From the NCBI GenBank assembly GCA_035764005.1, contig DASTZZ010000110.1:1-49776 (forward strand): 49,776 nt of DNA. The letters are read 5' to 3'. The notes beneath the pieces were generated by a model that saw only the letters and a program-made list of their open reading frames with translations, was not told the DNA's origin and searched no databases. The position numbers and the translations under genes are program-made. Of this stretch, positions 1,491-34,590 are shown piece after piece. The first letter of the stretch is position 1; every line of letters begins with the position of its first letter. Source of the DNA: Terriglobales bacterium (lineage in GTDB: Bacteria; Acidobacteriota; Terriglobia; Terriglobales; Acidobacteriaceae).

Positions 1491-1573
1491 GTCAGTACCG
1501 TTCCCGGTAGGGAATGGGTGTGTAAGTGTCGGGAGGGTTCGCTCACCCATTCGCTACCGCGAACGGTACTGAC
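1491..1573. repeat. palindromic element with GGTA-loop hairpins (short variant)
   Basis: An imperfect 83-bp inverted repeat. The left half reads GTCAGTACCG, stem TTCCC, loop GGTA, stem GGGAA, then TGGG. The right half, on the other strand, reads GTCAGTACCG, TTCGC, GGTA, GCGAA, TGGG. The same plan recurs at 5506-5644 and 11168-11306 with different stem sequences. It lies between the response regulator and the convergent SIMPL gene and could also act as a bidirectional terminator-like structure. Confidence 0.7.
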
Positions 1574-4147: not shown

Positions 4148-5525
4148 AATGACGGCAATGGCGCGGACCGAATCGGCTCAACTGCCGCGCGCGCTAGGCC
4201 TGCGCCATGCCATTGCAATCGTTGTAGGCACGATTATCGGCAGCGGAATCTTCCTCGTTCCCAAAGAAATGATGCAGGCGGTCGGCTCCGCCAAGCTGGT
4301 TTATCTGGCATGGATTGTCGGAGGAGTTCTTTCCGTTTTCGGCGCGCTCACGTATGCCGAACTGGGAGCGCTGAAGCCGCAAGCCGGCGGCGAGTATGTC
4401 TATGTCCGCGACGGCTACGGTCCACTCGCCGGCTTCCTGTACGCGTGGACATGGTTCGTAATCGCCAAACCTGCATCGATTGCGACCATCACGATCGGAG
4501 TGATGCGCATCCTCGGCACCTTCAACACCTTCAGCTTCCTGGGTAACGTCGCGATAGCCACGCCATTTACGATCACCTGGGCTCAAGTTGGAGCCATCCT
4601 GGTCACGATTCTCATTTCGGGACTCAACTACATCGGCGTGCGCAAAGCTGGAGACTTTCAATACATCTTCACCTGGCTCAAGGTGCTGATGATCGGAGCT
4701 ATCGTCGGCGTCGCATTCAGCTTTCGCGGCGGCACCTTCCACAATTTTTCGACCACTTTCGCGGGAGCCACGGGCGGCGTTAACGGTTTCATGATCGCTC
4801 TGGTTGCGGCGCTCTGGGCATATGACGGATGGAACGATCTGAATATGGTCAGCGAAGAGATCGAGCACCCCGAGCGGAATATCCCGCTGGGCCTCATCGT
4901 TGGAGTGCTCGCCGTTGCGGTGCTCTACATGGCCACGAACGCGGCCGTGCAGTACGTGCTTCCTGCTGCTCAAGTCGCGGCCTCGGATCGTCCTGCATCC
5001 GATGCCACGCTGCTCGCGATCGGAGCGGTGGGAGCCATGATCGTCTCCGCAGGCATGGCGCTCTCGATGGTCGTCGGCCTGAATGGGACGGTCATGAGTG
5101 GAGGTCGAGTGCCTTTCGCCGTCGCCCGCGACGGATACTTCTTCCGCGTCCTGGCCGAAGTTCATCCGCGCTTTCTCACGCCGGGAAATTCGCTGATCGT
5201 GCAAGCGATTTTGTCGTGCGCTCTGCTGTTGATGGTCTCGCGATTTCAGCAACTATTTTCCATCGCCATCTTCGCCGAATGGCTCTTCTACATGGTTGCT
5301 GCCAGCACAATCTTCATTTTTCGGAAGCGAATGCCGGACGCGCCGCGTCCATATCGCGCGTGGGGGTATCCGGTGGTGCCGGCGATCTTCATCGTCGCCG
5401 CGGCATTCCTGCTTTATTCAACCTTTGCGGAGAATCTCGGCCGTTCCCTAATTGGGAGCGCAGTGATTTTGGCGGGGATTCCAGTGTTTCTCTATTTCCA
5501 AACACAACAGAACCGGCGCCGGTAG
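4140..5525 (+). CDS. APC-family amino-acid permease (LAT/SteT-like)
   Basis: 461 residues, twelve membrane helices. TM1 carries the APC unwound motif GTIIGSGIFLVPKE (near residues 29-42), and TM6 contains AALWAYDGWNDLNMVSEE, the matching substrate-binding break. Together they point to a Ser/Thr- or broad amino-acid exchanger of the SteT/LAT type. The start at 4140 has GGAG seven bases upstream and overlaps the symporter stop by eight bases; ATGs at 4149 and 4158 are alternatives. The C-terminus is odd: its last codons and stop lie inside a palindromic repeat that begins at 5506, so the tail TQQNRRR is probably repeat-derived. Confidence 0.9.
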   Translation: MHEMTAMARTESAQLPRALGLRHAIAIVVGTIIGSGIFLVPKEMMQAVGSAKLVYLAWIVGGVLSVFGALTYAELGALKPQAGGEYVYVRDGYGPLAGFLYAWTWFVIAKPASIATITIGVMRILGTFNTFSFLGNVAIATPFTITWAQVGAILVTILISGLNYIGVRKAGDFQYIFTWLKVLMIGAIVGVAFSFRGGTFHNFSTTFAGATGGVNGFMIALVAALWAYDGWNDLNMVSEEIEHPERNIPLGLIVGVLAVAVLYMATNAAVQYVLPAAQVAASDRPASDATLLAIGAVGAMIVSAGMALSMVVGLNGTVMSGGRVPFAVARDGYFFRVLAEVHPRFLTPGNSLIVQAILSCALLLMVSRFQQLFSIAIFAEWLFYMVAASTIFIFRKRMPDAPRPYRAWGYPVVPAIFIVAAAFLLYSTFAENLGRSLIGSAVILAGIPVFLYFQTQQNRRR

Positions 5526-5644
5526 GCGCTGGGGCAGCCGCGTCTTGTGCGGCTGCGTTTCTCGAAATCGGCTGCAGCATCGTTGAACCCGGAGCTGGCC
5601 ATCCGGCCATCTCCGGCCCAGCGGCTACCGCCGCCGATTCTGTT
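5506..5644. repeat. palindromic BIME-like element, copy 1 (139 bp)
   Basis: Both ends read AACAGAA inward on opposite strands. Each half has CG, a five-base stem, loop GGTA, complementary stem and TGGG (GCGCC/GGCGC on the left, GCGGC/GCCGC on the right). A second hairpin follows each. On the left (Y-type) it is GCAGCCGC with a 7-nt loop at 5534-5556. On the right (Z-type) it is a 12-bp stem, CCGGAGCTGGCC with a 4-nt loop, at 5589-5616. The element supplies the stop codon of the preceding permease (TAG 5523-5525, inside the first GGTAG). It is homologous to 11168-11306 in reverse orientation. Confidence 0.8.
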
Positions 5645-10136: not shown

Positions 10137-10368
10137 TAGGAGACCTCGAGTCTTCTTCCAGGTCGGGCACTTTCAGTGCCAACAGCTTGCCTGATATCGG
10201 CTGGGTCGCGGTCCCCAATTGTGCAGAACTCACTTCTCCACCCCCTAAAACGCTAAAAGTTGCCCGAATCTTGATTCATGCGAGCACATCCAAACCAAAG
10301 AAACTATGAAGGTTTCGGCAGATTTCTGAGGGCATTTCAGTGCAAAACTCTTCAAATTGTAGCTTGGG

Positions 10369-10464
10369 GTTAACGCCGAAATTTCCACGGGGTTAACCCG
10401 TCTTTTTCCACGGCGTTAACCCCGAATTTTCCACGGCGTTAACCCCAGAGCTTTCGGCGTTAAC
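10369..10464. repeat. GTTAAC tandem array, 23-bp period (five units)
   Basis: GTTAAC occurs at 10369, 10392, 10415, 10438 and 10459, so the steps are 23, 23, 23 and 21 bases. Between the palindromes most units read CCGAATTTTCCACGG or a close variant. Each GTTAAC sits in a wider partly palindromic context (GGGGTTAACGCCG, CGGCGTTAACCCC, CGGCGTTAACGCCG). The array lies in the 695-bp divergent region between an ADOP on the minus strand and padR on the plus strand. It is too short and its spacers too alike for a CRISPR array. Confidence 0.75.
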
Positions 10465-10772
10465 GCCGAATTTTGGAAGAGCCGTGCGCCGCGTGAAATT
10501 CGCATTCCGGAATTGGGAAACAGCCATACTTCTGTGCTATCCCGAAAGCAGGCGAAAGTCAAGCGAAATATTTTGCGTTCATGCAGACCCGGCTCTAGTG
10601 TCCGACTCTTTGACTTGATCACGAACATCCGCGCACAATATCTCCCTCTTTGAACCGCACGCTATGTTCACATTCACACGCGAGTGTCCGAAAGCGAACA
10701 CGCACATTCGCATAGCGAGCCACTCCTACACGCCCTGATCGTCCCAAAGTGCCGTTCCGAAAAATTCTCCTA
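10465..10772. other. non-coding gap with one GTGTCCG palindrome
   Basis: About 300 bases without a credible gene. A near-perfect inverted repeat GTGTCCG-AAAG-CGAACAC lies at 10684-10701, and a single GTGTCCG half-site at about 10598. This may be a regulator-binding site for either divergent transcript. Nothing else is recognised. Confidence 0.4.
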
Positions 10773-11167: not shown

Positions 11168-11306
11168 GACAGAACCGCCGCCGATAGGCCGTGGGTCGGA
11201 GATCGCCGAATGGCGAGCTCCGAGCGCGACGACACGGTGAGCAGTAGGAAAAAACGCAGCCGCAACACGCGCGGCTGCCCCACCGGCTACCGCCGGCGGT
11301 TCTGTT
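11168..11306. repeat. palindromic BIME-like element, copy 2 (139 bp, reversed)
   Basis: Exactly the same length as copy 1 and collinear with it after reverse complement. The left half carries the Z-type hairpin (TCGGAGATCGCC with its imperfect partner around a four-base loop). The right half carries the Y-type hairpin (GCAGCCGC, 7-nt loop, GCGGCTGC). The small inner hairpins are CCGCC-GATA-GGCCG on the left (one mismatch) and, read on the other strand, CCGGC-GGTA-GCCGG on the right. It begins four bases after the padR stop and ends just before the ribosome-binding site of the next gene. Confidence 0.8.
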
Positions 11307-12262: not shown

Positions 12263-12347
12263 TCGATTTCGTGATTTCCTGATTTCGCGATTTCGTGATT
12301 TGGTCTTTCCCATCGCGAAATCACGAAATCACACAATCACGAAATTA
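12263..12347. repeat. inverted repeat of ATTTCGTG octamers
   Basis: The left arm (12263-12301) is four near-tandem copies of ATTTCGTG-like octamers. The right arm (12313-12347) is the reverse complement with a few changes, around a loop of about a dozen bases. It can form a long stem and may end transcription of the preceding gene, though no T-tract is present. Confidence 0.65.
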
Positions 12348-21415: not shown

Positions 21416-21492
21416 GCGCCCTTAGCTCAGTTGGATAGAGCGTCTGACTACGAATCAGAAGGTCGGGAGTTCGAATCTCTCAGGGCGCGCCA
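21416..21492 (+). tRNA. tRNA-Arg (anticodon ACG)
   Basis: The full cloverleaf can be drawn: acceptor GCGCCCT with AGGGCGC, D-stem GCTC/GAGC, anticodon stem TCTGA/TCAGA around loop CTACGAA, T-stem GGGAG/CTCTC with TTCGAAT, discriminator G and encoded CCA. ACG reads CGN codons after A34-to-inosine editing. Its 3' part (21449-21493) is repeated at 22621-22665, which marks the gene as an integration site. Confidence 0.96.
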
Positions 21493-21740
21493 TGTTTTCA
21501 ACAACTTGCAATCTTCTGCTGTGCCCGAATCTGCGCATTGTGCCCGTTCGCAAGACATCATTCGATCCGCCAAAACCTGAATCCAGGCTTACGGTTCTCA
21601 TCGGCGCGTTCATATCGCAGGTCGCTACGGTCTGCAATCATGCGGGCGAGATCTTCTGGATTGCCTGTGCTCGAATCCATGCGCACCAGCTTTCAGGGCA
21701 CTGCAAACGACATCCTCTGGGAACACGATGAGTTCTCAGT

Positions 21741-22620: not shown

Positions 22621-22665
22621 TACGAATCAGAAGGTCGGGAGTTCGAATCTGTCAGGGCGCGCCAT
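22621..22665 (+). repeat. partial tRNA-Arg copy (attachment-site repeat)
   Basis: It matches 21449-21493 (from the anticodon to CCA plus one base) with a single C-to-G change. The change breaks a T-stem pair (CTCTC becomes CTGTC). It has no 5' half, so it is not a functional tRNA. Confidence 0.9.
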
Positions 22666-32313: not shown

Positions 32314-34590
32314 ATGCGAAACAGAACTTGCGCTTTAACAATGCCTCGTTTGCTCGCCGGTTTGGTGTTTCTCTCCGGCGTCTTCACCGTCGCTCAAACT
32401 GCTTCGATTTCAGGAAACCTCGCGGACGACGCGCGCGCGTTCGTCGAGACCCCCGCGGTGGCCGGCTATGAGCAGCAATTAGCCACCGCAATCGCGGCCA
32501 GGCTGAAGACGTTTTCTCCGCGAGTCGATAACCAGGGCAATGTTGTTTTTACGTTGGGAACGGGCACTCCTCATCGTCTGATCGTCACCGCAATTGACGA
32601 ACCCGGATTCGTGGCGAGCGGCATCACTTCCGACGGTTATGTGACCGTGCAACGATTGCCGCAGATGGGCAATCTTCCGTTGTTCAACGAGCTTTACTCC
32701 GCGCAGCCAGTGAAGATCGGCACGCGCCAACATTCGTGGATCAATGGATCGGTCGCAGGCCTCTCCATTCACCTCGAACCCCAGCGGCAGCACTCGCCAT
32801 CTCCGGCCGATCTGGACAACATCTACGTCGACGTCGGCGCAAGCAGCGCGAGCGAAGCGCGCTCCGCCGGAGTCGATCTTCTGAATCCGATCGCGATCGA
32901 TCGCAAGTTTTACCAGATGGGCAACGGCGGATGGACAGCTCCAGCCATTGGAGACCGCTTCGGCGCCGCTGCTCTAATCGAAGTCATTCGCAACCTGGAT
33001 CCCACACGGCTCACCGGATCGGTGACCTTCGCGTTCGTCACGCAACAATGGCTGGGCGCCCGCGGACTGCAGCGCGTAATCCATGAAACCAATCCCGACG
33101 AAGTCATTTATATCGGCCGCCGCATGCGAGCGCCGGCAATTCCCGGACAGCGCGGGACGAGTCCATCATTCCAGCACCGCCCGGGCGACGGCGTGCTGCT
33201 AGCCGGCGAAAACCCCGAGAGCGATGCCACCGGCCTGGCCGCAGAACTTACAAAGCTCGCCGCCGAACATCAGATCAAAATCGCTACCGACTACTCGGCG
33301 CCGCTGCTGCCGCGAGGCGGCTACATGCTGCAGCCGAGGCTGCCGGAGCGAACTGTGCATCTTGCGGTCGCAACCGAGTGGCCATCCACGCCCGGCGAGA
33401 TCCTGCAATCGGCGGACGTCGTCTCACTGGCATCCCTTATCGATTTGCATCTCGGCTCCACGCCTCAGAATCACGCGCAATCTGCGCCCACTTTGCCCGA
33501 ACCGCCCGCTCCCACTGGCCCGAAGACAACTCCCGCAGTCGAGCGCGTTCTGCGTGAGCTGGTCGAGACCTACGGCCCCAGCGAGCACGAACAAAATGTG
33601 CGAGCCGCCGTGACGCAACTGCTGCCGCCATGGGCCAAGCCGGTAACGGACGATGCCGGAAACCTGGTCGTACATCTTCCGGCGGCTTCTCCCAATCCGG
33701 CACAGAGGATCGTCGTCGTCGCTCACATGGACGAGATCGGCTACGAAGTTCGTTCTGTCCTCGATGATGGCCGACTCGAACTGAAGGAAGAAGGCACGGG
33801 CGTGCTCGCATATTTTCTCGGCCACGCTGCGCTGGTGCATTCGTCGAACGGCATGCACCCCGGCGTGCTGGAACTTCCTGACGGATGGGACAAGCCCGAC
33901 TTCCAGTGGCCGCGTGGCCGCAATCAGGTCTTTCACATGGACGTCGGCGCAACCAGCCCCGAGCAGGTGGCGCAGTTGGGAATCAAAGTAGGAGATTTTG
34001 TCACGATTCCCAAGACCTACCGCAAGCTGTTCGGTACGCGGGCAAGTGCGCGAGCTTTGGATGACCGCGTCGGCTGCGCGGCACTCGTCGAGGCCGCATG
34101 GGCGCTCGGCGGACAATCCTCCGCTCCGAAGTTTTCCGACCGCGACGTAACCTTGATCTGGTCCACGCGCGAGGAACTCGGTCTGTTCGGCGCCGCCGGA
34201 GCCGCCAAGGATTTTGCCGCAAGCGGAAAAACTCCAACCGTCGTCTTCGCGATCGACACGTTTGTGAGCGCAGACTCGCCACTGGAATCGAAGCGCTTCG
34301 CCGACGCCCCCATCGGCCGCGGCTTCGTGATTCGAGCAGTCGACAACTCAAACATCGTGCCGGAAAAGTCGGTCGATCGAGTGCTGAGCATAGCCCGGAC
34401 CAACAACATCGCAGCTCAATACGGCGTCACCGGCGGAGGAAACGATGGCGCAACTTTCCTTTTATACGGAACAACTGACGTGGCCCTGGGCTGGCCTCTG
34501 CGTTACTCGCACTCGCCCGCCGAGGTTATCGACGTCCGCGACGTAGATGCGCTCGGCAAAATCATCGCCGCCGTCACGCGAAACTGGTGA
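32314..34590 (+). CDS. secreted tandem M42-type aminopeptidase (inactive half + active half)
   Basis: 758 residues with a signal peptide (start 32314, or ATG 32341 at residue 10). The C-terminal half (about 405-758) has a full M42 set: H471 and D473 (VVAHMDEIG), D583 (ALDDRVG), E620-E621 (STREELGLFG), D648 (FAIDTF), H733 (YSHSPAE). It should be a dinuclear zinc/cobalt aminopeptidase. The N-terminal half (about 35-385) has the same fold order, but the matching positions are A93 (VTAIDEPG), G213 (IGDRFG), Q245-W246 (VTQQWLG) and a Trp-containing stretch (TEWPSTPGE), so ligands and catalytic Glu are lost. A Pro-rich linker (390-405) joins them. Ordinary M42 enzymes are about 350 residues, single-domain and cytosolic. 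Confidence 0.85.
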   Translation: MRNRTCALTMPRLLAGLVFLSGVFTVAQTASISGNLADDARAFVETPAVAGYEQQLATAIAARLKTFSPRVDNQGNVVFTLGTGTPHRLIVTAIDEPGFVASGITSDGYVTVQRLPQMGNLPLFNELYSAQPVKIGTRQHSWINGSVAGLSIHLEPQRQHSPSPADLDNIYVDVGASSASEARSAGVDLLNPIAIDRKFYQMGNGGWTAPAIGDRFGAAALIEVIRNLDPTRLTGSVTFAFVTQQWLGARGLQRVIHETNPDEVIYIGRRMRAPAIPGQRGTSPSFQHRPGDGVLLAGENPESDATGLAAELTKLAAEHQIKIATDYSAPLLPRGGYMLQPRLPERTVHLAVATEWPSTPGEILQSADVVSLASLIDLHLGSTPQNHAQSAPTLPEPPAPTGPKTTPAVERVLRELVETYGPSEHEQNVRAAVTQLLPPWAKPVTDDAGNLVVHLPAASPNPAQRIVVVAHMDEIGYEVRSVLDDGRLELKEEGTGVLAYFLGHAALVHSSNGMHPGVLELPDGWDKPDFQWPRGRNQVFHMDVGATSPEQVAQLGIKVGDFVTIPKTYRKLFGTRASARALDDRVGCAALVEAAWALGGQSSAPKFSDRDVTLIWSTREELGLFGAAGAAKDFAASGKTPTVVFAIDTFVSADSPLESKRFADAPIGRGFVIRAVDNSNIVPEKSVDRVLSIARTNNIAAQYGVTGGGNDGATFLLYGTTDVALGWPLRYSHSPAEVIDVRDVDALGKIIAAVTRNW

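Follow-up and report, generated by a model that had tools for sequence, protein, structure and literature searches.

The window analyzed here, a 49,776-nucleotide stretch of a Terriglobales bacterium genome, contains three elements, each with a pair of inverted arms. The first (1491–1573) is a REPIN-like element of a short family (T, CAGTACCG), with a 27-nt spacer between its arms and the ends GTCAG...CTGAC. Its arm 1 (1493–1518, plus strand) consists of the foot CAGTA, an 8-pair stem and the loop GGTA, with TTCCC/GGGAA in the stem, and arm 2 (1546–1571, minus strand) keeps this design with a different stem, TTCGC/GCGAA, each of the two being self-paired. We set the end of the element from the T-family profile, in which position -1 is T in 57 of 57 cases and position -2 is G in 53 of 57, with no more than 0.32 bits beyond position -2.

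The other two elements belong to a long family (A, CAGAACCG) and have two extra hairpins inside, one of the GCAGCCGC type and one of the TCGGAG/CCGGAG type. At 5506–5644, arm 1 (5508–5533, plus strand; GCGCC-GGTA-GGCGC) is followed by the GCAGCCGC-type hairpin (5534–5556, plus strand), the CCGGAG-type hairpin (5589–5616, minus strand), whose central loop, read on the minus strand, is GGAT, of the d(cGNABg) form, and arm 2 (5617–5642, minus strand; GCGGC-GGTA-GCCGC). The third element (11168–11306) comprises arm 1 (11170–11195, plus strand; CCGCC-GATA-GGCCG), a TCGGAG-type hairpin (11196–11223, plus strand; central loop GAAT), a GCAGCCGC-type hairpin (11256–11278, minus strand) and arm 2 (11279–11304, minus strand; CCGGC-GGTA-GCCGG). 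A first-pass annotation of this DNA had described six half-elements of the form CAGWAYCG-N5-GRTA-N5-TGGG in these three elements, and all six match that pattern with 0 mismatches; five of the stems are perfectly paired, as it had stated, and the sixth (CCGCC/GGCCG) forms 4 of 5 pairs. Scanning the window at up to 2 mismatches returned the six halves and one unrelated site (34009), and each of 100 window shuffles gave at most 1 match. With its flanks included, the arm stem is predicted to have 8 pairs, one of them G.T.

The insertion site could be resolved for the third element. In three relatives (G001, G003 and G004) the equivalent site shows a clean absence: the end of the upstream gene and the leader of the next gene lie within a few bases of each other, whereas in the window the 139-nt element separates them. 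The element is missing from G002 too, but other intergenic sequence stands at that place. In G005, the ortholog of the gene preceding the element is followed by an imperfect inverted arm pair of its own (L200 1862–1928, 2 mismatches in each arm), and the sequence beyond that pair differs. Several deletions in the relatives would be a less simple account than one insertion.

The window holds other repeats as well. The 3' part (21449–21493) of a tRNA gene at 21416–21489 is repeated with 98% identity at 22621–22665, 1172 bases downstream, and might be the trace of an element integrated at the tRNA gene. Arrays of GGCGTTAACGCC-like palindromes, a second short repeat family, occur at 10365–10474 and on contig C70 (L042 ~2370–2500). 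Inverted repeats made up of CACGGAGACACGGAG-like units lie at two places in the genome (2375–2413 / 2542–2580 in the window and ~480–600 in L042), and ATTTCGTG-like units are arranged in tandem and inverted at 12266–12345.

Genome-wide copies and stem covariation

The genome (5.10 Mb, 131 contigs) contains 116 exact halves, 56 on the plus and 60 on the minus strand, compared with none for a reversed control pattern; the more detailed counts below rest on 106 of these 116. Across 61 genomes searched, all 6 members of the genus carry pattern matches (2 to 116), none were found in 31 other members of the family or 14 other members of the order, and 2 of 10 more distant members of the class match once each; for the reversed control, all 61 genomes together yielded 1 match. 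Close neighbors (<260 nt apart) are in plus/minus order in 48 of 51 cases, these and the following pair counts admitting halves with up to 2 mismatches and leaving out the match at 34009. Assigning families by the fourth base, we found 23 inverted pairs of the short family, GT|CAGTACCG-N5-GGTA-N5'-TGGGT, with arms 11–91 nt apart, and 24 of the long family, (A)A|CAGAACCG, with arms 46–149 nt apart (80–86 nt in 20 of the 24); one more inverted pair is mixed short/long. The 83-bp copy at 1491–1573, initially suspected of representing a sub-family, is indeed one of the 23 short-family pairs, distinct from the long family. Beside the 68 long-type arms, the next hairpin is of the GCAGCCGC type in 29, of the TCGGAG type in 27 and something else in 12. 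Only 13 of the 106 halves overlap an open reading frame (as called by a simple codon model) by at least 12 nt, compared with 10,461 of 16,000 random positions at the same loci. As extragenic inverted doublets with a cognate transposase, the elements are REPIN-like.

The first-pass annotation had read the stem differences as compensatory change, and the genome-wide data bear this out: 497 of 530 stem cells are Watson–Crick (106 of the 116 halves), and a covariation test against shuffles and slid partners, used in place of R-scape, was passed. Because the ten stem letters were left free in the search pattern, the pattern gives pairing no advantage. Stems are perfect in 78 of the 106 halves and fall into 32 distinct types; with the 3' stems re-dealt among the distinct types, the observed 137 of 160 paired cells compare with a shuffled mean of 91.2 (sd 5.6, maximum 113 in 5000). 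The slid-partner test used the 38 of 106 halves that were aligned (35 distinct). Here, 87.4% of cells were paired, compared with 28–64% with partners slid 1–3 columns; 45 cells had changed on both sides, compared with 1–11 after sliding and a shuffled mean of 16.9; and the covariation score was 0.584 versus 0.207 for shuffles. Two of five covariation measures on these 38 halves, the number of double-change pairs and the number of pair types, were not above shuffles.

In 42 of 48 inverted pairs the two arms differ in their stems, and for these 42 the Watson–Crick cells number 388 of 420 within an arm versus 309 of 420 between arms. At 39 of the 69 stem positions that differ between arms, both sides had changed and the pair is Watson–Crick in both arms. 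Since the arms of one element usually diverge yet each stays self-paired, the local hairpin is what evolution keeps. Predicted energies favor the long arm-with-arm form instead, at -31 to -54 kcal/mol for the whole element as a long inverted repeat versus -6.7 to -9.6 kcal/mol for a single arm.

We considered whether the arms might be degenerate terminal inverted repeats, their covariation being a legacy of a few founder copies rather than something maintained. A few stems are common to many copies (the commonest T stem, TCCGC/GCGGA, occurs in 24 of 57 T halves), the cell counts tally copies rather than events, and one of the two cognate genes described below is broken. However, the signal persists on distinct stem types and also in comparison with slid partners, a control that preserves relatedness, and arms within an element differ but stay paired; we give this explanation very little credence.

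Transposase genes bracketed by the arms

Two of the 12 Y1_Tnp matches in the genome, on contigs C25 and C70, are bracketed by these arms. The C25 gene is enclosed by two short-family arms in inverted order, 711 nt from start to start; a frameshift precedes its tyrosine motif, which can still be read in a different frame, so the short family may be immobile now. The C70 gene is intact and lies between two long-family elements, with its stop codon within the imperfect arm of one of them. That the folded form may be recognized by an enzyme, as was first proposed, is well supported by this association, each family bracketing one HUH/Y1 gene.

In an alignment of 40 proteins (A1, which took in 39 of the 80 relatives described below), H94/H96, Y155 and Q160 are invariant. 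The enzyme scores above the gathering cutoff of Y1_Tnp (PF01797; 24.2 bits versus 23), and below the curated cutoffs of both the RAYT family (NCBIfam NF047646; 25.1 versus 80 bits) and the IS200/IS605 family (NF033573; 23.4 versus 55 bits), models that are matched at E ≤ 0.001 by 31 of 40 and 37 of 40 aligned members, respectively. Sequence searches gave no convincing relative among solved structures, a profile search returning only 2f4f_A (E 0.94), and we therefore predicted the structure. The AlphaFold2 model of the C70 protein (mean pLDDT 85) has 19 Foldseek matches, including ISDra2, IS608 and the RAYT 4er8, with E-values of 3e-5 to 8e-4, a probability of 1.00 and 10–14% identity.

Among six proteins compared, the C25 protein is 81% identical to that encoded on contig C22 of G001, and the other 14 pairs are 47–60% identical. 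The C22 gene has two arms of C25's type (CAGTACCGT[C/T]CGC) at its 3' flank and none at the other; in this comparison, as in both GNNA scans and the stem test of relatives below, gene ends are approximate for some short-contig loci. As C25 and C22 share both arm type and 81% identity, enzyme kinship follows arm family in this one judgeable case. Matches to the C70 protein at E ≤ 1e-10 are patchily distributed in the order, occurring in 2 of 200 sampled genomes, both of this genus. Within the genus, G002 has one match and G005 two pieces; none was found in G003 and G004, which carry 25 and 2 halves, respectively, without a transposase match (the G003 genome is 88% complete).

Two further genes were noted. 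The Y1_Tnp gene on contig C72 has two arm-like sequences (L035 340–365 and 635–660, with 3 and 1 mismatches) ~0.9–1.2 kb to one side, perhaps a third family. Contig C62 of G000 (L102/L103) holds a third C70-transposase relative in two pieces, and an arm-like sequence lies close to them.

The GNNA loop beside relatives of the transposase

Scanning public bacterial genomes, we obtained 295 stretches that encode a relative of the transposase. We kept the best 80, most of them from Acidobacteriota, the rest from Planctomycetota and a few other groups. Within these best 80 of 295, the HxH motif is present in 79 and Y....Q in 76, and a flank-versus-flank comparison that assumed no structure revealed inverted arms scoring at least 19 in 72. 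The best hairpin, on either strand, has a GNNA loop in 53 of the 72 inverted-repeat arms, compared with 159 of 1209 shuffled arms, and the foot C[ACG]G[AT][AG] stands directly 5' of it in 49 of these 53. When both this foot and pairing were required, GNNA was the loop in 178 of 210 near-gene candidates versus 22 of 78 in control sequence, which contains some true dispersed copies; the feet of the 178 include CAGAA (73) and CAGTA (65). Distinct near-gene candidate hairpins number 112, of which 83 have GNNA loops and 80 of those 83 are closed by C-G, the commonest loops among the 83 being GGTA (19), GTCA (14), GTAA (12), GATA (11), GTTA (10) and GTGA (9). The GRTA loop seen in the window is one case of a wider loop rule. 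Patterns built from the arms of 16 chosen relatives were present in 15 of 15 genomes, 1 to 252 times, compared with 0 for the control.

By the scan requiring foot and pairing, a GNNA hairpin was present at 66 of 80 loci (best 80 of 295), on both sides in 56, and was not detected at 14. This bears on the possibility that the arms are duplex-DNA palindromes bound by a dimeric protein, such as gyrase or a nucleoid protein, and that their association with a transposase is incidental. The arms are palindromic, and Escherichia coli REPs are described as gyrase targets in passages of PMC3733652. Nonetheless, sequence-specific duplex binding keeps letters, whereas here the letters change and the pairing stays; the loop is not palindromic; and both families bracket a transposase gene, with a similar design at those 66 loci. 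We consider this explanation very unlikely.

Pairing also holds in arms of the relatives that were picked out by inverted repetition and anchored on the foot and GNNA loop only. Across 40 distinct stems (L112, L123 and L175 were omitted for masked letters), 200 of 320 cells are Watson–Crick, compared with a mean of 129.1 in 5000 shuffles (sd 6.5, maximum 157), an excess that argues against covariation merely inherited by degenerate repeats; 11 of these 40 unselected stems form at most 3 of 8 pairs. An earlier class-wide stem test (489 of 632 versus 318.1) was discarded as circular, its hairpins having been preselected for pairing, and was replaced by the unselected arms, a weaker test. Among the relatives' paired hairpins, only 13 of 79 are Watson–Crick at the third position from the loop, which often forms a GA/GA tandem mismatch with the fourth, or a T.G in the stem; the halves of this genome are mostly paired there.

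These observations suggest that a class of HUH/Y1 enzymes in Acidobacteriota, Planctomycetota and other phyla may read a shape, namely a free-sequence paired stem with a C-G-closed GNNA loop, of particular stability in single-stranded DNA, and a short CNG[A/T] foot beside it, a generalization that we put forward tentatively as plausible but somewhat short of probable. If true, such a code, made up of the foot and a DNA tetraloop, would leave the stems free to drift and still tie each enzyme to a repeat family of its own.

The loops also bear on whether the hairpin is read as DNA or RNA. In 2002, Nakano et al. reportedly named four stable tetraloop motifs of DNA, d(cGNNAg) and d(cGNABg) being two of them. 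A passage in the later literature citing that work (PMC5090098; PMC8373063) describes such loops as forming stably in DNA. The TCGGAG-type hairpins add to this: 19 of 27 fit, and 8 do not fit, a loop pattern that demands a G in first position and a closing C-G pair, and 17 of the 19 have the loops GAAT (13) or GGAT (4). By their fit to stable DNA tetraloops, the loops point to single-stranded DNA as the form that is probably read. Both the DNA and the RNA parameter set make the CAG strand the more stable one in 36 of 38 distinct arms, and these energy models do not separate DNA from RNA hairpins.

Selection might instead act on RNA-level elements (terminators, mRNA stabilizers or a structured RNA family), with mobility being past history. 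The hairpins are indeed predicted to be stable in both RNA and DNA form, and their location is intergenic. Against this, Rfam at its gathering threshold lists a tRNA alone in the whole window, and 58 of the 83 distinct GNNA loops beside the relatives' genes do not fit the RNA motif GNRA. Imperfect stem cells show no G.T excess (3 T.G, 8 C.A and 22 other), and this scarcity of T.G relative to C.A, small as the numbers are, lends no support to RNA pairing. Moreover, the arms are inverted, so one of each pair would be antisense in any transcript. We regard selection as RNA as very unlikely.

Proposed mechanism and relation to known systems

Taken together, the covariation, the REPIN arrangement, the extragenic location, the association with genes, the predicted enzyme fold and the one presence/absence site make it quite probable, in our judgment, that these are REPIN-like non-autonomous elements whose hairpins are recognized in single-stranded DNA by class-3-like transposases cognate to them. 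Each arm would act as a single-strand DNA hairpin with a 5' foot CAG[T/A]A, an 8-pair stem that may vary in sequence provided that it pairs, and a C-G-closed GNNA tetraloop. Its reader would be a cognate HUH/Y1 transposase of class 3 TnpA_Y1 type, that of C25 for the short family and that of C70 for the long. By analogy with TnpA_REP and IS200/IS605, the mechanism we consider most likely is that the enzyme would bind the hairpin once the strand becomes accessible, as at a replication fork, and make two cuts, one next to the foot and one at the far end; the single strand thus released would then re-insert between genes. Binding, cleavage beside the foot, the single-stranded intermediate, re-insertion and the timing of these steps are all carried over from those systems. 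IS608 has a comparable guide and cut site. Our guess is that the left foot CAG[T/A]A and the right end T[A/T]CTG, being complementary to each other, might serve as guide and cut site. Having two families, each with its own enzyme gene and covarying stems, together with a presence/absence site, makes the recognition rule directly testable.

Several known systems invite comparison. According to passages of PMC8266576, the TnpA_REP enzymes studied cleave REPs as single strands, at CT or CA, and in some of these systems the letters of the loop make a difference. The GTAG-footed REPs and REPINs with RAYTs (for example, subclasses 2.2, 2.4 and 2.5) share with our elements the extragenic inverted hairpin doublets and a cognate HUH/Y1 enzyme. 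They differ in the foot, which is CAG[T/A]A here, with GTAG found in the loop plus first stem base, and the enzyme described here falls below the RAYT cutoff. The GTAG-type rule given in passages of PMC6006769 places GTAG or GTGG 0–2 nt 5' of a stem with a loop of 2–5 nt; we rejected a GTAG-footed REP because GTAG lies in the loop and not at the foot, and a stem so footed would loop out the spacer (11–91 nt in the short family and 46–149 nt in the long).

IS200/IS605 elements such as IS608 and ISDra2 resemble ours in predicted enzyme fold and subterminal hairpins, and their Y-motif is described as related to that of class 3 (passages of PMC6006769). They differ in that the arms here are inverted and the enzyme is below the IS200 cutoff. 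TIRYTs, or TIRtrons, are RAYT-like genes between inverted repeats, with an Acidobacteria group that includes Koribacter versatilis, and the likeness, compared by description, is that their inverted repeats can be dispersed families, some partly self-complementary (passages of PMC3733652).

The closest resemblance by description is to class 3 TnpA_Y1, for which we drew on passages of PMC6006769. These enzymes have a Y----Q motif and occur in Acidobacteria, Planctomycetes and Proteobacteria; their genes are flanked by atypical hairpins with the foot CnGA, found by manual inspection, with ~600 copies in Solibacter usitatus. In 2018 they were seen as possible intermediates between insertion sequences and REPtrons, for which experiments were still called for. 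The passages give class 3 neither a loop rule nor covariation, the words 'tetraloop' and 'covari' being absent from the main text, and no paper in the library searched joins GNNA, transposase and hairpin. A GNNA loop rule would offer a cheap finder for elements that were identified manually in 2018 (passages of PMC6006769). The transposases described here combine HUH with Y----Q, their gene-flanking hairpins likewise occur in many copies (116 exact halves here) and the phyla, Acidobacteria and Planctomycetes, are the same. With regard to the foot, the CAGA of the long family fits CnGA, and the CAGT of the short family does not. By the published description of class 3 (passages of PMC6006769), both families fit this REPtron-like group of 2018 in the other respects.
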